Source: a virus. Taken from it: a stretch of 33,375 nt of DNA. This document shows, piece by piece, positions 2,361-33,375 of the stretch. The stretch's first letter is position 1; each line of letters starts with the position of its first letter. The stretch spans positions 1 through 33,375 of IMG/VR virus record IMGVR_UViG_3300046791_000071; one strand, 5' to 3'. The notes below the pieces were generated by a model. That model saw nothing but the letters and a program-made list of their open reading frames with translations. It had not been told where the DNA came from and searched no databases. A program made the translations under genes and the position numbers.

Positions 2361-2735
2361 ATGAACACTGTGACCCTGAGGTATCTGAAAGGCGACGCAC
2401 ACACGCTTGCGATCAAGCGCAATCCGTGGTCAATCAAGCACATGAGGCTTCAGTTCACGCCTTTGTGCGAGGTGGACACGCATATCGCCGGGAAGATTCT
2501 CAGGAACCCACGATTCACGGGAATGTTTGCGGAGGAGTTCATCCCTCCGCCGACATTCATTTGTGAGACTTGTGGATTCAGTGCAAGGCATAAACTCGCC
2601 TTGCTCGGCCATCAGCGTTCTCATTCAACCAAGATTCCTCACGAATCCAGATCGACGCTACCACAGTACCGTAGAAAACCTCTAACCTCAACAATGAAGT
2701 CAACCAAGAAAGTGAAGGAACTGACCAATGAATAA
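2361..2735 (+). CDS. Small head-region protein with a single C2H2 zinc finger
   Basis: This 124-residue protein comes right after the capsid gene. Its N-terminal half resembles small phage proteins that sit after capsid genes and contain an 'AxKILRNPRF' motif (here residues 44-51). Residues 68-88 form a classical zinc finger: C68-x2-C71-x12-H84-x3-H88, with the aromatic and leucine core positions in place. The C-terminus is Lys/Arg/Thr-rich and probably disordered. The stop overlaps the next start by eight bases (ATGAATAA), so the two genes are translationally coupled. Sampled rows are less GC-rich than neighbours (27 of 60 in 2641-2700). A decoration, completion or DNA-contact role is possible; none is shown. 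Confidence 0.7.
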   Translation: MNTVTLRYLKGDAHTLAIKRNPWSIKHMRLQFTPLCEVDTHIAGKILRNPRFTGMFAEEFIPPPTFICETCGFSARHKLALLGHQRSHSTKIPHESRSTLPQYRRKPLTSTMKSTKKVKELTNE

Positions 2736-3201
2736 ATTCATCCTCGTTGCCTTGATGGGACTTGGGATTGTCGGTGTCGCTCACGGCCAGACTGCCGCGA
2801 TTGACCAGACGTTCCAAATCTACTCGAAGGCGACGTATCTGGACGCCACGGCGACCGACACGACCGCGTATTTCTCCCTCTACGACCGTAGGGCGGGAAT
2901 TGCGAAGGGGCTCTCGCTTCAGGGAGTGTCGAACGATACGGCCTCTGTCATCGTCAGGTATCAACTGAAGAACTCGACGACCGGGCTCACCGGCTCGTTC
3001 ACCCTTCTTGATACGCTCGACAACGCGAACTCGGGGACTACCTACACGGCGGTCTCTGTGGGAACTCTGACAAACACGGATTTGATTAAGTACGATCTTA
3101 TCCGCTTTGAGCAGAACTACATCGCGGCTGTCGCGGCTTCACCGGGCAATGGCACCACGGCTGGGCGGGTGTTGAAGATTTTCATGCAACTCGTCCACTA
3201 G
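2728..3201 (+). CDS. Exported protein of the head/tail operon, Sec signal peptide
   Basis: The 157-residue product begins with a textbook Sec signal peptide: MNK, a hydrophobic core (FILVALMGLGIVGV) and AHG before Gln21. The mature part is Thr/Ser/Asp-rich and strand-like, with alternating hydrophobics, like a small jelly-roll or Ig-type fold. Its position between capsid and connector genes suggests a virion protein (decoration or head fibre) or a protein placed in the envelope during late infection. An export signal on a protein from this operon is unexpected, because virion proteins normally assemble in the cytoplasm. It overlaps the zinc-finger gene by eight bases. No family is recognised. 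Confidence 0.7.
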   Translation: MNKFILVALMGLGIVGVAHGQTAAIDQTFQIYSKATYLDATATDTTAYFSLYDRRAGIAKGLSLQGVSNDTASVIVRYQLKNSTTGLTGSFTLLDTLDNANSGTTYTAVSVGTLTNTDLIKYDLIRFEQNYIAAVAASPGNGTTAGRVLKIFMQLVH

Positions 3202-7900: not shown

Positions 7901-8016
7901 TTGAGTATAACATCGGCAACGCCCCCAATCATCTCACGGTTGGTGAGGTCTACCAGATTGACTCCATTGAAATCCACGGGACGTCCAAGTCCCGCAGGAA
8001 GGAAATCGCTGAATGA
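4975..8016 (+). CDS. Large tail nozzle / tubular-B-like protein
   Basis: At 1013 residues this is the largest protein in the window. The N-terminal stretch (LRNLTSALADGIGRVRPGYQTYSAANGG) and the C-terminal third, with repeated blade-like strands (DEFLVLKNRGIIR; GLSTVNAWAKDDAGVVVFPAFDDIYAYKDG in part), match the organisation of podovirus nozzle proteins, in which beta-propeller and Ig-like domains form the tail tube below the connector. An extra beta-sandwich-like region (about residues 280-480) may be an insertion. It overlaps both neighbours by ATGA, at 4975-4978 and 8013-8016. Such proteins are usually 450-850 residues, so this one is long. The call rests on pattern and position. Confidence 0.6.
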   Translation: MKVRTPPIAKITKAWLADAARVVRTRLPGAFNALRNLTSALADGIGRVRPGYQTYSAANGGLDAPTGMEVLKVSPIQSPAPDDVHIWYVNDGSKSIQMYPHYVGATRVAGTVDIGETFTFDALAFSTPDIPGDTIVFTSADADNVSTVDDYYNGWTLNYAPSNTPYDATSQNFLITDYDYDTAAGGTATFTVAGDPAGQESVGGKYTLARHFHDNPTFAPSYNNDLTAPIVQNVENSVIRLSGGQSSTDGNHGIIIFPKLTREFFPDSGDAVTFEGTYASERECRPATDILTSGSPVTTKSGGGNTEVLVPEGALGDLGDFTPTGAAFIAAIDDGSTPNDSDFIETVIVASNSKFLQVYCTPLTETIDPSGNISITIRYKANLTGTGTAAIEAGIWDATGEKSSATLSIPVDVASFTDFTFDTPVGDIDTDSMFIAIQFSHSGGGGLDNVTLDVSNIFFEADTMTTIDYLTADRTYWLGVAPVYDGFQLGQLYKLESGSDYAAVSGSWTDNYLATNPGIMNLNFNVSLGTLNKRITGFAIYGAVDEGATTVRANPYYFLKHLPIAATGSSSGDWALVSNNYFLTVLISQGDFTNKGNTYLTDAGYLETPADIMYAYSIEEIISGRRYLANAYIESASSVDSTSIFSNPTGGNGFFNAGVVQPDIFSNEEGVLKIKSDPSVGTQINGLVPIGVDEFLVLKNRGIIRSRVVVIDQVPNFIQKVESKDAGLSTVNAWAKDDAGVVVFPAFDDIYAYKDGQLSRLVEREDKNDWLSTYRGISVTDKMNAVVVYLPELKSHVFLFGSQRDPNSNIYNDLQFILGSNGWGSIFYETNDIGNATRSFKYFTQLSNGHIIGCDTATSGTATPFRMTWKTLDAGSTYTFGFTDNDEAIIPYFHTGDVYFSDGSYLMNEIIINRTMTGSVAQGQLDITVSSGDEIRDDVVGYDDVSRLVDDNETVTRRLRMNAPPNIIHKGNRWSIEYNIGNAPNHLTVGEVYQIDSIEIHGTSKSRRKEIAE

Positions 8017-9503
8017 AGAAACTGTTCCTCACCCTTACCGTCTTACTGTGTAGTACGCTGTCTTACGCCCAGACGGCGACCAATGCCGACACGGTGAAGG
8101 TTAAGAAGGCCATCATCGAGAAGAATACGGCGCAAGCCACCTGGCCCGCCACCTCCCCGGCTGGACAGACGATGTTTGTCTCCGCTGGCGATACGGGCAT
8201 CTACGCCATCACGCCGAATGGATGGGTGAGGCTCGATAGTGCGGGTACGTCTACTGAGGTCTCTAGCGACACCACCATCAATGTGACCCTCGCAGGTATC
8301 ACCTACACCGTGAAGGTGGACACCACGGTAATCGAGACCATCAATAACTCGATCCTCCGGAGTGACACCACCATCAACGTAGTCTATTCCCCCGTTGGGC
8401 CGGATAGTGTCAAGGTGGACACGGTGGTCATCGCCACCAAGGCAGACCTCGATGCGGTGAGTGGATGGTACGGGTCTGGCGCGGACGGGGCAATCACCCC
8501 AGCCGCCGACACCACGCTCACCAGGGATATGCACGCGACGGATTTGACGCTCAACGCGGGCATTGACCTCTACCCCGCCGGGTATAGGATATTCGTCACC
8601 GGGACACTCACCATTGCGTCTACGGCTACCATCAACGACACCGGGGCTACTGGCGCGGCGGGCGCATCGGCCCCGGCCAACACCACCAATTCTACGGTCG
8701 GAGCGAGTGGGGCAAGCGGTGGGTCTACCACAGGGAAGGCTGATGGCTACCTTGTCCGAGCATCCACCGGGACTGTCGGCGGTGATGGGGGTGATGGAAG
8801 TGATGGTGGTGTGAGGGCTGGCACCAATGGCTCCAATGGTTCCACGTTCACCAACTGCATCGGGAGTGCGGGTGCCGCAGGTGGGGATGGTGGTGGGAAC
8901 GGCAATGAGGCAGGTGGTACTGGTGGACTCGCCGGTGCGTGTACCGCCCCGACAGCCGCAAGCGGCCTCCGCAAGGATGTGTTCACGCAGTACATCAACC
9001 GAGCCTTCGCGCCCGACTTCTCAGTGTTCGCCAACGCCTACCTTCCCATCCGTAGTGGCGGGGGCTCTGGCGGAGGAGCGGGTGGGGCGAGAGGCGTGTC
9101 CGGCACGTCCGGTGGTGGCTACTGTATCGGCGGTCACGGTGTGGGTGGATCGGCTGGGCAGAACGGCGGGATGATCTGGGTTGCGGCCAGGGTCATCTCC
9201 GGCACGGGGACGCTCACGGTACGTGGCGGTGTCGGTGGTGCGGGCGGGAACGGTGGCGCGGCATCAGGCGGGACAACGGCGAACGAGGCAGGTAATGGCG
9301 GCGGAGGAGGCGGTGGGGCAAACGGTGGGATGATTGTCATATTCTACCACCGAATCTCAGCGATCACAACGAACATCGCGGGTGGGACTGGTGGGGCTCC
9401 GGGCATCTCCGGTCTTGCCACGGGAACCGGCCCGGTACAGGCACAGCCGGGGATACAAGGTGGCACGGGGAACTCTGGGGTATTACTTCTCTTTAAATTC
9501 TAA
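8013..9503 (+). CDS. Exported glycine-rich adhesin-like tail protein
   Basis: The 496-residue product starts with a Sec signal peptide (MKK, hydrophobic core, SYA before Gln20). Residues 20-150 are Thr/Asp/Val-rich and contain repeated DTTINV units (SDTTINVTLAG and SDTTINVVYSP). From about residue 205 to the end it is glycine-rich with GGxGGxGG runs broken by short strands (GMIWVAARVISGTGTLTVRGG, GMIVIFYHRISAI). That resembles the polyglycine-helix sandwich of phage adhesin tips such as T-even gp38, which bind host receptors. The start is fixed by an ATGA overlap with the nozzle gene, so the signal peptide is genuinely at the N-terminus. Confidence 0.65.
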   Translation: MKKLFLTLTVLLCSTLSYAQTATNADTVKVKKAIIEKNTAQATWPATSPAGQTMFVSAGDTGIYAITPNGWVRLDSAGTSTEVSSDTTINVTLAGITYTVKVDTTVIETINNSILRSDTTINVVYSPVGPDSVKVDTVVIATKADLDAVSGWYGSGADGAITPAADTTLTRDMHATDLTLNAGIDLYPAGYRIFVTGTLTIASTATINDTGATGAAGASAPANTTNSTVGASGASGGSTTGKADGYLVRASTGTVGGDGGDGSDGGVRAGTNGSNGSTFTNCIGSAGAAGGDGGGNGNEAGGTGGLAGACTAPTAASGLRKDVFTQYINRAFAPDFSVFANAYLPIRSGGGSGGGAGGARGVSGTSGGGYCIGGHGVGGSAGQNGGMIWVAARVISGTGTLTVRGGVGGAGGNGGAASGGTTANEAGNGGGGGGGANGGMIVIFYHRISAITTNIAGGTGGAPGISGLATGTGPVQAQPGIQGGTGNSGVLLLFKF

Positions 9504-19623: not shown

Positions 19624-20916
19624 CTACCTCACCCTCACGGTGTCATAGGTGATCTCGTGGAGCGCGTCATCAATCTTCATCGGCACCTTAAAGTCTAGCG
19701 TTCTGGGCACCAACTTGAAGATCATCCATACGGTGTCGCACTTGGTGACAACGGGTGGGATGGGCGGAGGTGTGGACTGCCCACCAAAGTACCTCCCAAT
19801 CTGGGAGAAGAACCACCCCCGACCACCAGGAGGCACGGTGGGGGTACTCCATATCTCACTCCCCAAGTTCCAGAACATCACCCCACCGATGTCCATTGAG
19901 TCAACAAGCGTCCTTGCGCCAGCGACCGCCTTGTCATAGCCGGGGAACGTGGTGAATGTCCACAACTTCCCATCAACGTAGGCACTGTAAGCGTAGGAGG
20001 TATCGTCCCACCTGATCGTACCGGGCAACACCCCGGAGAGGTAGGAATACTGGGTGGCGAAGTCTGGGTTGGAGCTACCATCGGTCATTGTGGAGATGTT
20101 GAGTTGGCGGATGCGGGTAATCCCACCGCCATACCACGTGGGGTTAGCGTCGAATCCGACCACCACCTTGGACTTGGGCCACCCTGCGGCGACGGCTTCA
20201 ATGGCCGCCTTCTGCATCGAAGGTGCCTCACTGTTGGCACCTTGACCCGCAAGGTAGTCAGTGTACCCGCCAGTACCATTCCAATATTTCCTCGACTTCA
20301 CCGAGTTGTCGTGGACGGCGCGTCCCCACCAATCCCCCACATTGTCGTAGGACATAATGTTCATGTGGTGGACGAGGGGGTTCAAGCTCACCCAACTCTT
20401 TGAGCGTCCCTGCCCCACGGTGAGGACGAGGTAGGCCCCTTTGGGGGTGAGGGAGTCTTTGACTACCTGCATGAACCCCTTGACGTTGGTGAGGGTGGGG
20501 CTACTCTCAATGTCCAACTCGATGAAGTCAATTCCCTTGGCCTCAACGAGGAACACTTGGTAGGATGCCCAACTAGCCCACTTGGTAGGATCATTGATGA
20601 CTGAGACCAATGCGGCATCACTCGACCCACCGTAGCAGAGTCCCGCCTTGACCCCCTTGGAGTGGGCGTAGGCACTCATTGGGGTGAGTTGGTTGAAGTA
20701 GGATTGATTGATCGGTGTGGAGCCACCAGTAGCAAAGAGGACAACGTGGGTCAACGATCCCCAGGGGAGGCTATCCACCGGGACTACACCCGCGGAAGTG
20801 GATGACCACTTGGTGTCGTCAAACGTGAGATACCCGTAGACAATCTTCTTCTCCTGTGCGGAGGTGGTCGCAAAAAGCGACATCCCCAATAACGTGACAG
20901 CGATGAACTTATTCAT
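19624..20916 (-). CDS. Exported GH18 glycosidase (chitinase/endoglycosidase-like)
   Basis: The 430-residue enzyme has a Sec signal peptide (cleavage TSA|QEKK after residue 20) and a GH18 barrel. Visible motifs are CYGGSS at 94-99 (SxGG-like strand), D130-x2-E133-x-D135-x-E137 matching DxxDxDxE with E137 as proton donor and one Asp changed to Glu, MSYD at 188-191, and GGVMFWNLGSE at 344-354. A Pro-rich link and a ~45-residue tail follow. GH18 enzymes cut beta-1,4 links between GlcNAc units. Here it could attack cell wall, capsule or host glycan, or serve as lysin. An AGGAGG site lies 11 bases upstream. Confidence 0.85.
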   Translation of the reverse strand: MNKFIAVTLLGMSLFATTSAQEKKIVYGYLTFDDTKWSSTSAGVVPVDSLPWGSLTHVVLFATGGSTPINQSYFNQLTPMSAYAHSKGVKAGLCYGGSSDAALVSVINDPTKWASWASYQVFLVEAKGIDFIELDIESSPTLTNVKGFMQVVKDSLTPKGAYLVLTVGQGRSKSWVSLNPLVHHMNIMSYDNVGDWWGRAVHDNSVKSRKYWNGTGGYTDYLAGQGANSEAPSMQKAAIEAVAAGWPKSKVVVGFDANPTWYGGGITRIRQLNISTMTDGSSNPDFATQYSYLSGVLPGTIRWDDTSYAYSAYVDGKLWTFTTFPGYDKAVAGARTLVDSMDIGGVMFWNLGSEIWSTPTVPPGGRGWFFSQIGRYFGGQSTPPPIPPVVTKCDTVWMIFKLVPRTLDFKVPMKIDDALHEITYDTVRVR

Positions 20917-23780: not shown

Positions 23781-23909
23781 CTAGCTGTTGACCAAGTAGC
23801 AAATATACATTCCAGCCACCACCCCACCAACGAACGCCAGCACCACCAGCCACGCAATAGTCTCATTGTCGAGGACTGGGGGATTGGGTCTATTGTATCG
23901 GTAGTTCAT
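23781..23909 (-). CDS. 42-residue single-span membrane protein, first gene after promoter A
   Basis: The start ATG 23909 is placed directly after a promoter whose -10 box (23915-23920) lies five bases upstream, so the mRNA is probably leaderless. The product is MNYRYNRPNPPVLDNETIAW followed by one span (about 20-39, Gly/Val/Ala-rich) and a short end. An open frame extends upstream to 24068 but runs through the promoter, the palindrome and the preceding gene. Codons 2-5 contain the half-site CTACCGAT. Function unknown. Confidence 0.6.
   Translation of the reverse strand: MNYRYNRPNPPVLDNETIAWLVVLAFVGGVVAGMYICYLVNS
23897..23904. promoter_or_regulatory. Operator half-site A2 (ATCGGTAG)
   Basis: This half-site matches one arm of the palindrome at 23952-23970 and lies inside the first codons of the small membrane gene. 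The same half-site accompanies the second palindrome (31784-31791). The minus-strand match GAACTACCGATA is 12 bases long and identical at both loci. Confidence 0.45.
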
Positions 23910-23914
23910 AATGA

Positions 23915-23943
23915 AATATACCTCACTGGAATTTAAGACGCAA
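23915..23943 (-). promoter_or_regulatory. Promoter A, leaderless type
   Basis: On the minus strand: TTGCGT (23943-23938), 17 bases, TATATT (23920-23915), then TCATT and ATG. The extended box TATATTTC fits the Bacteroidota -7 consensus TAnnTTTG in seven of eight positions. The start codon lies where transcription would begin. Confidence 0.5.
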
Positions 23944-23951
23944 GGGAAATT

Positions 23952-23970
23952 ATCGGTAATCTTTACCGCT
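23952..23970. promoter_or_regulatory. Operator palindrome A
   Basis: ATCGGTAA-TCT-TTACCGCT: arms of eight bases with one mismatch and a 3-base centre. It lies eight bases upstream of the -35 box of promoter A and covers the TAA stop of the winged-helix gene 23963-24160. The same palindrome recurs at 31823-31841. Confidence 0.55.
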
Positions 23971-24160
23971 TCACCCGGTACGCTGGCACCACCTTGTCGC
24001 CCTGACGCTTCCCCACCCTTTCCCACTTCCCGGACTTTACCATATCTGAGGCGAAGGTGGAAATCCACGACCGACTGTGGGGGGTTTCCTTCATCATATC
24101 GGTGATGGACTCAGCGTTCTGGTCAATGATGACTTTTGGTATTTGGGCAGAGGCTTTCAT
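23963..24160 (-). CDS. Small winged-helix/HTH-like protein
   Basis: The 65-residue protein (MKASAQIPKVIIDQNAESIT at its start) ends in HSRSWISTFASDMVKSGKWERV plus GDKVVPAYRVKR, the recognition helix and wing pattern of small winged-helix proteins. A regulatory role is likely. The palindromic site next to its own stop codon suggests it could be the protein that binds there, although this is speculation. The ATG overlaps the exonuclease stop (TAATG). Confidence 0.6.
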   Translation of the reverse strand: MKASAQIPKVIIDQNAESITDMMKETPHSRSWISTFASDMVKSGKWERVGKRQGDKVVPAYRVKR

Positions 24161-28662: not shown

Positions 28663-28766
28663 CGCGTTCTCCTTTCTCTTCGAGAATATTCTACACCTGC
28701 GGCAAGTCCAATGATGAATCCGAGACAGAACAAGATTGCGGCCCCCACCATATCATCTGCGCTCAT
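28653..28766 (-). CDS. 37-residue single-span membrane protein
   Basis: The product is MSADDMVGAAILFCLGFIIG, then LAAGVEYSRRERRTRCR: one Gly-containing span and an Arg-rich tail, orientation tail-in by the positive-inside rule. ATG 28766 forms an ATGA overlap with the preceding gene; an open extension to 28856 is only a shadow of that gene. The stop lies inside the start region of the DnaJ-type gene (10-base overlap). Function unknown. Confidence 0.6.
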   Translation of the reverse strand: MSADDMVGAAILFCLGFIIGLAAGVEYSRRERRTRCR

Positions 28767-29614
28767 TCTGCATCCCCCTCTCGGTTCGGTGGGGTGGGGG
28801 TGTAGGGGTATCGGGTCACAGGCCCGCACTCTACAGGGACGGGACAGTTCCGACACTGTCCGTCACAGTCTGGCGAGTGGCCCGGTACTGCGTGGGAAAA
28901 GGTTTCCACGTAGAACTGTTCTCCGCACGCATCACATTGCCAAATTTCAGCACCACACCATTCCTTGTGTTCAAAGCCATCAGCAACTCCGCAGGAACAT
29001 CCATTACTCATATCTTCTCCCCCCTCTCGGTTCGGTGGGGTGGCATCAGCACCCTCCGGTTTGGATTCGTAGAATTGGCGGGCGGCGATTAGGCCATCCC
29101 TGAATTCCGATACAAGCTCATCGGCATCCAATTTATCAAGACTAAACTCGCGCATTAGGACATCTCGCTTTTCGTTGCACATCCGATCAATGTCCTCATC
29201 CGTCAACATCTTCCTCGCGGTACTCACCGGGGAAGGGACAACGTCAACCTTGCAGATTGTGTTTATCCCCATCGCGTCAGCCATCTCCTGAAAACAGGCG
29301 GGACAGATAATACCATTCGGCGAGCCGTTGACTTTGTTAAATATTTCGTTTGGCGTGAACCACGTTGGATTCTTGCCGCCGCATCGCCCACATCGGCCCT
29401 CCAGGTGATTCCCAATCTCACTCCCCCCCGTGTTGGATGAGGGTGCGGAACCGGCGCGGGTGTTCCACGCTTTTAACGCCTTCGGCCAAATCAGATGCCT
29501 TCGACCCTCCACGCCGCATTTACCACATCGGACAAAAGCCTGACCCGTACTCATATCGCATTGCCGCGTGCAATCTTCACACCCACAGAACGGACACGGC
29601 TTCACTTCATCCAT
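28763..29614 (-). CDS. Multi-zinc-ribbon protein with Lar-like N-terminus
   Basis: The 283-residue product opens with VKPCPFCGCEDC..., CGKCGVEGRR and a KALKAWNTR end, the signature of Lar-like (restriction-alleviation-type) zinc ribbons. A second ribbon follows (GRCGRCGGKNPTWF ... GIICPACFQEMADAMG), then a Cys-rich C-terminus with several CxC/CxxC pairs. The linker TPPNREG occurs twice, once before the last module and once at the end. ATG 29614 is chosen from an eight-base overlap with the upstream stop. True Lar shields against type I restriction; whether this mosaic does so is unknown. Confidence 0.65.
   Translation of the reverse strand: MDEVKPCPFCGCEDCTRQCDMSTGQAFVRCGKCGVEGRRHLIWPKALKAWNTRAGSAPSSNTGGSEIGNHLEGRCGRCGGKNPTWFTPNEIFNKVNGSPNGIICPACFQEMADAMGINTICKVDVVPSPVSTARKMLTDEDIDRMCNEKRDVLMREFSLDKLDADELVSEFRDGLIAARQFYESKPEGADATPPNREGGEDMSNGCSCGVADGFEHKEWCGAEIWQCDACGEQFYVETFSHAVPGHSPDCDGQCRNCPVPVECGPVTRYPYTPTPPNREGDAE
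28774..28797 (-). repeat. Linker repeat, copy 2 (24 bp)
   Basis: Perfect 24-bp repeat of 29020-29043. On the minus strand it encodes the TPPNREG linker at the end of the multi-zinc gene. Confidence 0.7.
29020..29043 (-). repeat. Linker repeat, copy 1 (24 bp)
   Basis: Perfect 24-bp match to 28774-28797, encoding TPPNREG between zinc modules. A diverged version (PTANEKG) ends the upstream gene near 29630. Confidence 0.7.
29428..29456 (-). repeat. Linker repeat B, copy 2
   Basis: This 29-bp stretch matches 30137-30165 at 27 positions. On the minus strand it encodes the Ser/Gly-rich linker AGSAPSSNTGG of the multi-zinc protein. Confidence 0.65.
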
Positions 29615-30350
29615 TGTCTTTCCCTTTCTCGTTGGCGGTGGGGTCGTAGGGGGCGGGGAGCGGCATCCACGCGGCAACGAGTTGATCGTCGCGGGTGAGG
29701 TGGCGCAACGACCAATGCGGGTCATCGTCGGTCTGATACCACGCCACATCGCAACCAGTTTCCGTTCGGGGTGGGTATTCATAGACCAAGTAATGCCCAT
29801 CATACTCCGGCTTTTCCTCTGGCCACTTTCTCCACCCTACGGCGGGTTCGGAGGTTTGGCGAAAGGCGAGTGGAATGTTATCAATCGTTCGAATTGGAGG
29901 GTGTAGGCGTGCATACGCAAGGTGCGATGCTTTGCTTGAAATCAGAGCGCGCCTCAACTCCTCTACCGCCCAACTTCTGCACGAACATCCGATTTCGTGT
30001 CTTCCTTCACGATGGATGCAGAAAAATGTCGGCTTATCTACCGCTTCGTTATATAACTTCTGGAAATCGGGCCGCCGCTCTACATTGCCAATCTCTATGT
30101 GTGCATCAGCCTCCGCATACGTGCCCCCCGCCCCCTCCGTGGTGGATGAGGATGCGGAACCGGCGGTGAAAGCGTCATATACGTCCGTATAGTGGACAGA
30201 ATGTCGGTCAACACCTATCCCTTCCACGCGGAACACATTGTCCGCATATTCCCTCGCCTTCATCTCCGCGTCCATTTCGTTCCTCGTCATTTTCTCCCTC
30301 AGTCCTAATTGTTCTACATCGGTGTCGATGGGGACGATGGGGTCATTCAT
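29607..30350 (-). CDS. DUF551-containing modular protein
   Basis: The 247-residue protein ends in a DUF551 domain (about 172-235: GWRKWPEEKPEYDGHYLVYEY in part, then VAWY and VAAWMPLP). This domain is common in Ea22-type accessory proteins of lambdoid and other phages, with unknown function. The N-terminal part is charged, followed by a Ser/Thr/Gly linker (AGSASSSTTEGAGG) and a small Cys/His region (CIHREGRHEIGCSC). It overlaps neighbours by eight bases at each end. The linker DNA recurs in the next gene, suggesting module shuffling. Confidence 0.65.
   Translation of the reverse strand: MNDPIVPIDTDVEQLGLREKMTRNEMDAEMKAREYADNVFRVEGIGVDRHSVHYTDVYDAFTAGSASSSTTEGAGGTYAEADAHIEIGNVERRPDFQKLYNEAVDKPTFFCIHREGRHEIGCSCRSWAVEELRRALISSKASHLAYARLHPPIRTIDNIPLAFRQTSEPAVGWRKWPEEKPEYDGHYLVYEYPPRTETGCDVAWYQTDDDPHWSLRHLTRDDQLVAAWMPLPAPYDPTANEKGKDNG
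30137..30165 (-). repeat. Linker repeat B, copy 1
   Basis: 27 of 29 bases match 29428-29456. It encodes AGSASSSTTEG in the DUF551 protein, so adjacent genes share a linker at DNA level. Confidence 0.65.
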
Positions 30351-30525
30351 CGTTGTCCCCCGGTATATGTTCTTCGCAGTAATAACCGTGGCCTATTTGT
30401 GTGAGTTCGCCAAGATAGAACAGGCTCTTACACTTCACACACATTCCGGCCAGTCCATCGACCCACGCCTGGATGATGGCCTCCTCACGCTTGCCATCCT
30501 CGTACAGGGACTCATCGGTACTCAT
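30343..30525 (-). CDS. Small zinc-ribbon-like protein
   Basis: This is a 60-residue protein with a C29-x2-C32 pair and a later HGYYCEEH segment, enough for one zinc site. The ends are acidic. It starts six bases after the Cys-rich exported gene and overlaps the DUF551 gene by eight bases. No ribosome site is clear. Function unknown. Confidence 0.55.
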   Translation of the reverse strand: MSTDESLYEDGKREEAIIQAWVDGLAGMCVKCKSLFYLGELTQIGHGYYCEEHIPGDNDE

Positions 30526-30531
30526 GTCAAG

Positions 30532-30765
30532 TCACTGTGAGCAGTATGTGGCGCAATTCGTTCCGCGCCCATTGTCGAGGACACAGCTCTTGTTCCCCTC
30601 GGCGTTATTGCTCCCATCTGGGTTAATGGCCGACCTGGAACAATCACACACCGCCGCACACCTACTACCCCTGAGTGCCGTGGGGACAGGTTCCACGAGC
30701 TTGTAGACGCTCCCCAATATACTTACGATGGAGGTGAACGATACCGCGATGAGTAAGGTTTTCAT
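30532..30765 (-). CDS. Exported or membrane-anchored Cys-rich small protein
   Basis: The 77-residue product has an N-terminal hydrophobic segment (TLLIAVSFTSIVSILGSVY) acting as signal or anchor, then a mature part with six cysteines (C36, C40, C42, C61, C71, C75), likely disulfide-bonded outside the cytoplasm. ATG 30765 overlaps the stop of the thioredoxin-like gene (ATGA), which rules out the longer open frame. Being coupled to an exported thioredoxin-like protein suggests that protein handles its disulfides. No family recognised. Confidence 0.6.
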   Translation of the reverse strand: MKTLLIAVSFTSIVSILGSVYKLVEPVPTALRGSRCAAVCDCSRSAINPDGSNNAEGNKSCVLDNGRGTNCATYCSQ

Positions 30766-31145
30766 TTTGCACCTGTTGGTTGGAAGGTTGAATCGAGTTC
30801 CCCCTGCCACATCCACACAATCTTGCCGCCCTTGATCTGGATTGTCAGCGGGACGTTGTTTAGTTGATTGGCTAACATAAACTCTTGGGCCTCGCTCGGA
30901 TCACCCCCACAGTCAAGGCAGATGGTGGTGACGTTGTGCCCGGTCTCGATGAGTGTATTGATTGACGTGAATGAGGCGATACAGTGAGGGCACGTTGAGG
31001 TAAAGATGAAGATGTACCCATTGCCCATTGAGTCGGCGTAGGGTTTGAGTGCGCCGATGTCGGGGAGGGTGTTGGTGGGGACGACCAAGCCGACGATTAC
31101 CGCGGCGGCCACGAGGACTGAAGTGAGTATTACTAAAAACTTCAT
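30762..31145 (-). CDS. Membrane-anchored thioredoxin-like protein (CPHC)
   Basis: The 127-residue protein has an N-terminal anchor (about 3-22) and a thioredoxin fold: strand YIFIFTSTCPHC with active-site C52-P-H-C55, a second CLDC pair (77-80), cis-proline V98-P99 and a final strand pair (TIQIKGGKIVWMWQG). The CPHC motif matches the DsbA active site, favouring an oxidising role; the TlpA/ResA-like brevity and anchor suggest work in the periplasm. It is coupled by ATGA to the lipoprotein before it and the Cys-rich protein after it. Confidence 0.8.
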   Translation of the reverse strand: MKFLVILTSVLVAAAVIVGLVVPTNTLPDIGALKPYADSMGNGYIFIFTSTCPHCIASFTSINTLIETGHNVTTICLDCGGDPSEAQEFMLANQLNNVPLTIQIKGGKIVWMWQGELDSTFQPTGAK

Positions 31146-31774
31146 CGAAGTTCTCCCAATTCAAAGTGTAGATTCTCTGGGTTGGCAACATCAGACACCC
31201 GGTAGATCAAAATAAGGTGTTCCTCTGTCGTGAGGGTGTTGTGCTGTCTCCCCCAAATCGTTGAGGGTAGAAGTGTATCCCCACCACCCACAAGCCTCGC
31301 CATTTGTCCGATGTTGGAAATGTCCGGCTGTGGGCAGGGTTGGTCCGCCATCCCCATCAGTGGGCGACCGTTGAACATTGCGGACTGGCAGGGATAGGAG
31401 GGATTGTAGAGGTTGAGCACCAAAAGCAGGGAATCCGGGTGATCCCCGCCCATTCGGTTCCACGGCTTCCCACCACGATCCACGTAGAGGCCCCTAGCTT
31501 GCACCGTAAGGCCGTACGTCCTCTCGTAGGCCGTGGAGTCCCCAAACCCATCACGAAGTTGTTGTAGCCTCGTTATGGCCCGTATAACTTCCGGCGTGTA
31601 GGCCGTTGCCATATAATACACGGTGGCAGACTTGTCGCGGAGGTTGTGTTGCATTGCCCCGCCTATAACGATCAGGCAATCGGTAGCATCCCAGGTGTTC
31701 GAGGGGTTGCGGACTACCTCACTTGGTGAGGCGTAGCACCCGCAGAGGAGGAGGAGTAGTGGGAAAAGTCTCAT
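31142..31774 (-). CDS. Lipoprotein, first gene after promoter B
   Basis: The 210-residue product starts MRLFPLLLLLCGC, a lipoprotein signal with probable lipidated Cys13 (or Cys11). The mature part is soluble and mixed helix/strand (PEVIRAITRLQQLRDGFGDS; SLLLVLNLYNPSYP), with Cys residues near QPCPQ and YPCQS. ATG 31774 follows a promoter by six bases and has no ribosome site; an upstream extension to 31867 runs through the promoter and operator. No family recognised. With the two genes after it, it forms an envelope cassette. Confidence 0.65.
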   Translation of the reverse strand: MRLFPLLLLLCGCYASPSEVVRNPSNTWDATDCLIVIGGAMQHNLRDKSATVYYMATAYTPEVIRAITRLQQLRDGFGDSTAYERTYGLTVQARGLYVDRGGKPWNRMGGDHPDSLLLVLNLYNPSYPCQSAMFNGRPLMGMADQPCPQPDISNIGQMARLVGGGDTLLPSTIWGRQHNTLTTEEHLILIYRVSDVANPENLHFELGELR

Positions 31775-31780
31775 TGTTTG

Positions 31781-31809
31781 AATATCGGTAGTTCTCGTTA
31801 AAATGTCAA
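31781..31809 (-). promoter_or_regulatory. Promoter B, leaderless type
   Basis: On the minus strand: perfect TTGACA (31809-31804), 17 bases, GATATT (31786-31781), then CAAACA and ATG. No ribosome site lies between. The half-site ACTACCGATA overlaps the -10 box (plus-strand ATCGGTAG at 31784-31791), a position where a repressor would block RNA polymerase. Confidence 0.65.
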
Positions 31810-31822
31810 GCAATTTCTTCAT

Positions 31823-31841
31823 ATCGGTAAAGATTACCGAT
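31823..31841. promoter_or_regulatory. Operator palindrome B
   Basis: ATCGGTAA-AGA-TTACCGAT: perfect 8-base arms with a 3-base centre, 13 bases upstream of the -35 box of promoter B. It covers the stop codon of the gene 31834-32193, just as palindrome A covers a stop codon. Confidence 0.65.
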
Positions 31842-32193
31842 TTGCGGTGCCTGAGATCGGTGCCCATATTTCACGGAGTTTGTCCCAGTGTTTGCGGGCT
31901 AAAACAAGGAATCTCGCCGCTTCTTCCTCGTTGATGTTTTCGATGTGATGGGGGGCGAATATCCCCTTGCGTTGGTGCATTATAAACACCTCGGCGTATT
32001 TCCTTTCGGGGTGGTCCTCGTCCACCGGCTTGATGTCCCAACGGAAAATCAGGTTCATATCAATATCCGCATCTTCATACTCTGCGAGGAAATCGGTCAT
32101 TGTCGGATGCTTCATATTCGGGTCATTTGAAAAATAGTTCATCTCGGAGCAGTAATACGGATGTGGGACCGCGAGTGAGTCTAATACGTTCAT
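31834..32193 (-). CDS. Conserved-type phage protein, unknown
   Basis: The 119-residue protein starts MNVLDSLAVPHPYYCSEMNY and contains DADIDMNLIFRWDI and MHQRKGIFAPHHIENI, then a helical end (EEEAARFLVLARKHWDKL). This block order is seen in small proteins of many phages, with no known role. ATG 32193 is chosen for its GGAGA site seven bases upstream; the open frame to 32298 overlaps the opposite-strand microgene. Row 32101-32160 has only 25 G+C of 60, lower than most of the window. Confidence 0.65.
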   Translation of the reverse strand: MNVLDSLAVPHPYYCSEMNYFSNDPNMKHPTMTDFLAEYEDADIDMNLIFRWDIKPVDEDHPERKYAEVFIMHQRKGIFAPHHIENINEEEAARFLVLARKHWDKLREIWAPISGTANR

Positions 32194-32924: not shown

Positions 32925-33023
32925 TCACACACCTAGTACCCACCGCCACGCCAGCACCAACAGGAACAGGTGTACCCACAAGAGGAATCCGGCAAGGATA
33001 AGGGTTGAGGGGCGGAGGGTCAT
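32925..33023 (-). CDS. 32-residue single-span membrane protein
   Basis: The product is MTLRPSTLILAGFLLWVHLF, then LLVLAWRWVLGV: one span rich in Leu and Trp. The ATG overlaps the stop of the repeat protein (ATGA), which supports it as a real gene. It is the same size as the microprotein at 26165-26263 but unrelated in sequence. Function unknown. Confidence 0.55.
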   Translation of the reverse strand: MTLRPSTLILAGFLLWVHLFLLVLAWRWVLGV

Positions 33024-33375
33024 TTGCCAACCTTTTTGAATAGTTTCATGTATTCCCCGTATTCCGCGATTTCAGCCTCGGAGTATCCTTCCTTGCGGCC
33101 TACCGCCTCGTAATGTTCCAGCCACCAGTCGAATGTATTACAATGGCATCCAATCTGAATGTGTCCGTGTTGGCAGTTGGTGAGTGAGTGGCGCGAGCCG
33201 ATGATGAATAGGGGGGATTTATCCCACGCCGAGCCGTAGACCCGCGCCGAGCCGTAGACCTCCGCCGAGCCGTAGACCTGCGCCGAGCCGTAGACCTCCG
33301 CCGAGCCGGAGACCTGCGCCGAGCCGTAGACCCGCGCCGAGCCGTAGACCTCCGCCGAGCCGTAGACCTGCGCCG
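33020..33375 (-). CDS. VYGSA-repeat beta-helix-like protein (5' end outside window)
   Basis: The visible 117 residues begin with eight hexapeptides of the form (Q/E/R)-V-Y-G-S-A (one has VSGSA), followed by WDKSPLFIIGSRHSLTNCQH and IQIGCHCNTFDWWLEHY, ending in a charged helix (EGYSEAEIAEYGEYMKLFKK). Such repeats fold as a left-handed beta-helix in related proteins. The C-terminal 'SPL.I.GSRH...NC...I.IGCxCxTFxWW' domain resembles the phage DUF7666 group, usually joined to V-x-G-x-A repeats. The function of these proteins is unknown. The start lies beyond the right edge. Confidence 0.7.
   Translation of the reverse strand, partial: AQVYGSAEVYGSARVYGSAQVSGSAEVYGSAQVYGSAEVYGSARVYGSAWDKSPLFIIGSRHSLTNCQHGHIQIGCHCNTFDWWLEHYEAVGRKEGYSEAEIAEYGEYMKLFKKVGK
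33227..33375 (-). repeat. 18-bp tandem repeat coding for VYGSA hexapeptides
   Basis: Eight full 18-bp units start at 33227 and every 18 bases to 33353; a ninth is cut by the window edge. The first codon varies (Gln, Glu or Arg) while the rest is nearly identical, so the array expands by whole codon sets and can change length by slippage without a frameshift. Confidence 0.85.

Follow-up and report, generated by a model that had tools for sequence, protein, structure and literature searches.

Some phage lipoproteins are known to act on receptors from the periplasmic side, T5 Llp and Rtp45 being examples in the accessible part of PMC12685063. Rtp45 is a superinfection-exclusion lipoprotein of ~6 kDa that contains a disulfide (Cys30-Cys38) and binds LptD from its periplasmic side; in the same part of that source no dedicated oxidoreductase is described for either protein (PMC12685063). 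Exclusion lipoproteins of the Rtp45 type that contain disulfides presumably depend on the host for them. The TrbB/TraF-like proteins of F-type conjugation carry an exported thioredoxin-type domain and are encoded by mobile elements beside exported partners, and TrbB is reported in the accessible part of PMC3420020 to be a thioredoxin-like isomerase and to interact with DsbD. No report of a phage-encoded exported thioredoxin was found in the open-access collection searched, which is weak evidence of absence. A DsbA-like protein placed among Liberibacter orthologs (PMC11251058, partial text) is read here as chromosomal and not as prophage-borne.

The window, i.e. the whole stretch of DNA that was analysed, is the IMG/VR virus record IMGVR_UViG_3300046791_000071 of 33,375 bases, which has a plus-strand structural block and is podovirus-like. 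Its capsid protein was assigned to phrog_334 (PHROG), and Paracoccus phage KLEP18-1 is nearest by capsid-protein E-value among the annotated phages listed. Compared with this phage, neither a terminase nor a portal was recognised in the window, hence the genome is probably incomplete. The source is a tailed bacterial virus, represented by a podovirus-like fragment. A cassette of three genes, termed A, B and C, sits in its minus-strand block together with the following elements.

31834-32193, minus strand: upstream gene, the stop codon of which overlaps the operator palindrome
31823-31841, no strand assigned: operator palindrome ATCGGTAAAGATTACCGAT, perfect, with 8-nt arms and 19 nt in total
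31809-31781, minus strand: promoter-like TTGACA-17-GATATT, the end of which is 6 nt upstream of the start codon of gene A
31783-31790, minus strand: half-site TACCGATA within the 12-mer GAACTACCGATA, overlapping the -10
31142-31774, minus strand: gene A (210 aa, ATG...TGA), predicted lipoprotein (MRLFPLLLLLCGC...), Cys 11, 13, 33, 129 and 147
30762-31145, minus strand: gene B (127 aa, ATG...TGA), predicted membrane-anchored and thioredoxin-like, CPHC 52-55, CLDC 76-79, cis-Pro candidate P99
30532-30765, minus strand: gene C (77 aa, ATG...TGA), predicted exported or signal-anchored, Cys 36, 40, 42, 61, 71 and 75
30343-30525, minus strand: ORF (60 aa, Cys-containing) that begins 6 nt past gene C

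A, B and C are real genes. Both junctions, A/B and B/C, are ATGA overlaps, and for each gene the annotated frame is preferred by codon usage over the other five, which bears out the three ATGA-coupled genes of the initial annotation at the very positions given there. Shine-Dalgarno-like sequences precede B (GGGAG) and C (AGGTG), and none was found before the ATG of gene A. The 60-aa ORF at 30343-30525 overlaps a further ORF, and the operon probably continues beyond C into it. A promoter dedicated to three genes, as had been claimed, is therefore unlikely because a fourth gene begins 6 nt after C; the operator that was part of the same claim stands (see below).

In all three products a basic n-region is followed by a hydrophobic segment near the N-terminus. 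This rule-based evidence supports the annotated export or lipid anchoring of A, B and C. Such segments occur in 11 of the 49 picked genes of the window and a run of three has a permutation P of 0.32, so that three adjacent genes of this kind are unsurprising in this genome. This touches on a somewhat unlikely alternative in which A is the real effector, a superinfection-exclusion or receptor-masking lipoprotein, while B and C are unrelated exported passengers of an early operon. The unremarkable run, the seeming extension of the operon past C and the precedent of T5 Llp and Rtp45 at the periplasmic face of receptors (PMC12685063, accessible part) are in line with it. However, the ATGA coupling at both junctions argues for matched synthesis, a six-Cys C beside an exported thioredoxin-like B fits a common purpose, and A with its 210 aa is far larger than Rtp45 at ~6 kDa (same partial source). 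A gave no detectable match in INPHARED; what it has in common with T5 Llp and Rtp45 is that it is a predicted phage-encoded lipoprotein, and Rtp45, according to the accessible text, holds a disulfide. If B were indeed an unrelated passenger, the case would shrink to an ordinary orphan accessory operon.

A lipobox-like LLCGC is present in A, with its Cys as residue 13, implying a very short signal peptide. The PROSITE lipobox rule places this Cys in the range 15-35, and Cys13 falls outside. A resembles a lipoprotein in which the signal peptide is very short and the putative lipid-bearing Cys is at position 13. The predicted mature protein would keep three Cys besides the lipid Cys13 (33, 129 and 147), an odd number. 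C combines its N-terminal hydrophobic segment with six Cys in 77 aa, exactly the number given in the initial annotation. Its Cys content is 7.8% and that of B 3.1%, as compared to 1.3% across the 49 picked genes. Neither A nor C matched anything in Pfam, PHROGs, NCBIfam or PADLOC, and PADLOC returned nothing for B as well. A PDB search gave one match for A at E 0.58 and none for C.

Protein B was compared with known families using Pfam and NCBIfam. The matches to NCBIfam were TraF-like (E 0.0027), TrbB (E 0.0069) and the MJ0307 thioredoxin (E 0.19), with TIGR02738 and TIGR02740 as the best weak profiles over the CPxC region. All of them are subthreshold: TraF-like reaches 17 of the 232.25 bits required by the curated cutoff, TrbB 16.1 of 132 bits, and Redoxin in Pfam (E 0.08) 13.1 of 26.6 bits. 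No family model of Pfam or NCBIfam was reached at its curated cutoff, and we therefore write that B resembles the named families and not that it is a member of them. The PDB list for B is headed by a glutaredoxin (E 0.19) and a thioredoxin (E 0.4). An off-theme family, carbamate kinase, also gave weak matches in NCBIfam (E 0.067-0.17), and the ranking thus does not consist of thioredoxin-type proteins only. As controls, none of eight shuffles of B matched any Pfam family and none of five matched anything in NCBIfam.

The residues around these matches were examined by alignment. In a MAFFT alignment of B, TrxA, TrbB and CcmG the positions C52, C55, V72, P99 and G106 are invariant besides M1, and C52, C55 and P99 of B share their columns with the catalytic Cys and the cis-Pro of the other three. 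The CxxC lies behind a hydrophobic strand, where a helix would begin (YIFIFTSTCPHCIASFTSINTL), and is aligned with the sites of TrxA, TrbB and CcmG, a correspondence at the level of sequence. B has the arrangement expected of a thioredoxin fold, with a cis-Pro candidate ~40-60 residues past the first Cys and, behind it, a hydrophobic strand and a turn of the GGK type. The spacing from the first Cys to the cis-Pro is 47 (C52 to P99) in B, 44 in E. coli TrxA and 121 in DsbA. In shuffles of B's own residues a CxxC with [VIT]P 40-55 residues further on arises in 1.5% and two CxxC in 0.09%. Pairwise BLASTP of B against TrbB and TrxA gave no match, and against DsbA solely a 9-residue match around CPHC. 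AlphaFold models from single sequences were too poor to use (pLDDT 49 and 35; B, without homologues, 49.4), and a fold search from the poor model was uninformative (best E 0.4).

The two CxxC knuckles of B lie about 20 residues apart, which is a zinc-ribbon-like spacing. B could be a membrane-anchored zinc ribbon whose CPHC and CLDC jointly bind one metal ion and have no redox role. A scan of IMG/VR for CPHC-x20-CxDC points in this direction, as it retrieved 11 loci of which by reading none is thioredoxin-like and most are zinc ribbon-like. B itself behaves differently from such sequences: it matches thioredoxin-type and no zinc-ribbon families in NCBIfam, while three of four same-motif controls (CPHC-x20-CxDC) matched zinc-binding families and none of the four a thioredoxin-type one. 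In addition, CPHC in B is preceded by a hydrophobic strand and not followed by Gly, and the tail (VP...GGKIVWMWQG) is in register with thioredoxin. We consider the zinc ribbon very unlikely. Given that the subthreshold matches converge and that the cis-Pro candidate follows 47 residues on, B is best described as minimal, membrane-anchored and thioredoxin-like, most likely a minimal thioredoxin-fold oxidoreductase as judged from its sequence.

Comparison with the described oxidoreductases sharpens this picture. B had been termed DsbA-like, and it does have the CPHC active-site motif of E. coli DsbA plus an extra CxxC (CLDC). Membership in the DsbA family is not supported, as the spacing of 47 versus 121 leaves no room for the helical insertion, and B differs further by its membrane anchor and the extra CLDC; the term thus fits the CPHC motif only. 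The CcmG/TlpA-type proteins are similar in having an N-terminal anchor, a CPxC and a thioredoxin domain outside the cytoplasm (predicted for B), and the catalytic columns align. In contrast to them B has CPHC instead of CPTC, is without the long insertion, and no cytochrome c maturation genes were recognised near the cassette. TrbB and the TraF-like proteins share with B a (predicted) exported thioredoxin-type domain that a mobile element encodes next to exported partners. TrbB, on the other hand, is longer (181 aa compared to 127 aa), whereas B is membrane-anchored and has a second CxxC, and no conjugation genes were recognised in the window.

The likeness to TrbB suggests another role for B, namely a host-fed isomerase or reductase helper, like DsbD-dependent TrbB, for other exported phage proteins (GH18, tail, lysis), with C as a small redox or metal-binding protein. 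TraF-like and TrbB are the best NCBIfam matches of B, TrbB was reported as a DsbD-interacting isomerase (PMC3420020, accessible part), and a possible client exists in the GH18 protein at 19624-20916, which has a signal peptide and 2 Cys. Yet the exported proteins with long ectodomains elsewhere in the window are Cys-poor (0.5% in the GH18 protein, 0.8% in that of 8013-9503). Moreover the CPHC motif is that of DsbA, an oxidase, whereas the active site of TrbB is CPYC. Such a helper function is quite improbable in our view.

The region upstream of gene A was searched for recurrent elements, and a second control region was found in the window.

23952-23970, no strand assigned: second operator palindrome, with one mismatch to the symmetric consensus
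23896-23903, minus strand: half-site TACCGATA of the second control region
23781-23909, minus strand: 42-aa single-TM protein (MNYRYNRPNPPVLDNETIAWLVVLAFVGGVVAGMYICYLVNS) behind the second operator; TATATT ends 5 nt before its ATG

The palindrome with up to three mismatches occurs twice in the window (0.06 expected), and the combined operator pattern likewise twice (0 expected). All four copies of TACCGATA in the window fall in the two control regions, a count of four that none of 100 shuffles has. After both palindromes comes the identical 12-mer GAACTACCGATA on the same strand, which carries the half-site. The two control regions (201 and 271 nt compared) have nine 9-mers in common, which is reached by none of 1964 random pairs, and at both sites the stop codon of the preceding gene overlaps with the palindrome (CGG TAA at the second site; region 23781-24160). 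Promoter-like sites as a class are at chance level (12 found, 11.2 expected from shuffles), and support for the control region therefore comes from the recurrent operator. This operator is real and recurrent, in agreement with the second part of the earlier promoter claim. The -35 of the second site (TTGCGT) is weak and the site is absent from the list of the promoter scan.

GATATT, the putative -10 hexamer of gene A, ends 6 nt before its ATG, and TATATT, that of the 42-aa protein, 5 nt before its ATG. Transcription usually begins about 7 nt after the -10, hence both messages would be leaderless, and the missing Shine-Dalgarno of A fits the predicted leaderless transcript. Together this suggests leaderless, co-controlled transcripts at both operators. 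The two operons, each headed by an envelope or membrane protein, appear to share one putative regulator, and early timing of the cassette may be proposed from the neighbouring replication-type genes. ACAATGAGACT was considered as conserved start codons at both promoters and rejected, as a better ORF at the second site starts at 23909 and contains the 11-mer internally. A search of IMG/VR for the operator pattern returned three loci, of which two apparently lie within the coding sequence of near-identical contigs and the third has a different iterated palindrome. None of the window proteins was matched at these three loci, and by this pattern search no other phage showed the operator layout. 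An unrelated viral contig (L120:4629-4700) contains a palindrome array of TTACCGATTCGGTAA, resembling the half-site of the cassette operator.

Based on these data we tentatively favour an envelope accessory operon that is switched by the operator and in which B handles the disulfides of C and perhaps A, plausibly against superinfecting phage. A repressor-like operator would switch the cassette and would be shared with the second operon that starts with the small membrane protein. A would be lipidated, C would be exported as a cysteine-rich protein, and B would be held in the inner membrane with its minimal thioredoxin domain outside the cytoplasm. The CPHC of B would then make, shuffle or maintain the redox state of disulfides in C and perhaps A, while the CLDC, predicted to lie where strand beta-2 ends, may act as a relay dithiol. 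The disulfide-stabilised A and C products would act at the envelope, most plausibly against a superinfecting phage; superinfection exclusion is a reasonable purpose by analogy with Rtp45 (PMC12685063, accessible part). Lipidation, redox direction, substrates and purpose are inferred. A self-contained cassette, in which an anchored thioredoxin with two in-line CxxC pairs hands disulfides on to a six-Cys client, co-translated with it, and to a lipoprotein and so yields a disulfide-locked envelope factor independent of the host Dsb system, is unlikely. The initial annotation as a whole is partly supported. If the favoured operon is real, phages would manage oxidative folding in the envelope, and the cassette would be a small testable module of an exported thioredoxin with its likely clients.

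A phage-encoded pair of oxidase and substrate outside the cytoplasm had been called unusual, and as regards the oxidoreductases the survey of phage genomes agrees. In tblastn searches of INPHARED (50,697 records) with E. coli K-12 queries, DsbA matched 9, CcmG 11 and TrbB 0 records. Several of the matched records, judged by their names, sizes and annotations, are bacterially annotated Salmonella contigs filed as phage, other rows are unannotated short records, and annotated matches lie in the records of Streptococcus phage Javan274 and Acinetobacter phage MD-2021a. By this measure phages rarely carry extracytoplasmic oxidoreductases, though B itself would escape these queries.

Relatives of the cassette were searched in several collections. 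Single-protein searches of IMG/VR retrieved no relatives of A, B or C, and GTDB genomes none of A or B. In INPHARED A and C had no match and B one (E 0.7), and among plasmids B had no match and A one (E 0.5). Capsid kin were gathered from a two-sequence capsid alignment (109 relatives, 80 loci kept), and the records of 16 of the 80 were searched. A and B were found in none of the 16 and C matched in one (E 0.029, 21 residues), which we take as chance. Local tblastn across 111 loci gave no match for A, B or C, and a preliminary survey of the kin genomes for exported Cys proteins showed no counterpart. A motif scan for exported proteins with CxxC plus Pro covered 95 loci with partial overlap (1.30 Mb); of its 13 hits 6 are distinct, and none is thioredoxin-like by reading. 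The upstream gene at 31834-32193 has a 44% relative in an AT-rich contig (L112), where no other window protein was found, A, B and C included. As far as the collections searched show, from which very near relatives are possibly excluded, the cassette is an orphan insert of this lineage; with moderate confidence we regard it as an interesting orphan.

Capsid kin with a 35-48% identical capsid protein were found (loci L019-L025). Five of six compared kin also have the capsid-proximal genes in common with the window, three of these five looking near-identical to each other, and the accessory regions of the kin are unlike that of the window. The protein encoded just past the capsid gene region at 2728-3201 has a clear signal peptide (MNKFILVALMGLGIVGVAHGQT), which is odd within a head-module gene; it is conserved at about 30-35% in five kin contigs (G001, G002 and G003 look alike; G004 and G006 differ). 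A Gly-rich protein of the structural block (8013-9503) and the GH18 enzyme at 19624-20916 (Pfam E 7e-16) both start with a signal peptide that ends in AQ, which is unusual for phage proteins. A tandem repeat protein (VYGSA...) lies at the window edge (33020-33373) and is interrupted by the end of the record. A Cys-rich ORF at 28763-29620 (MDEVKPCPFCG...) was subjected to one family scan only, PADLOC; by eye its start resembles what we take to be a Lar-type restriction-alleviation zinc protein.
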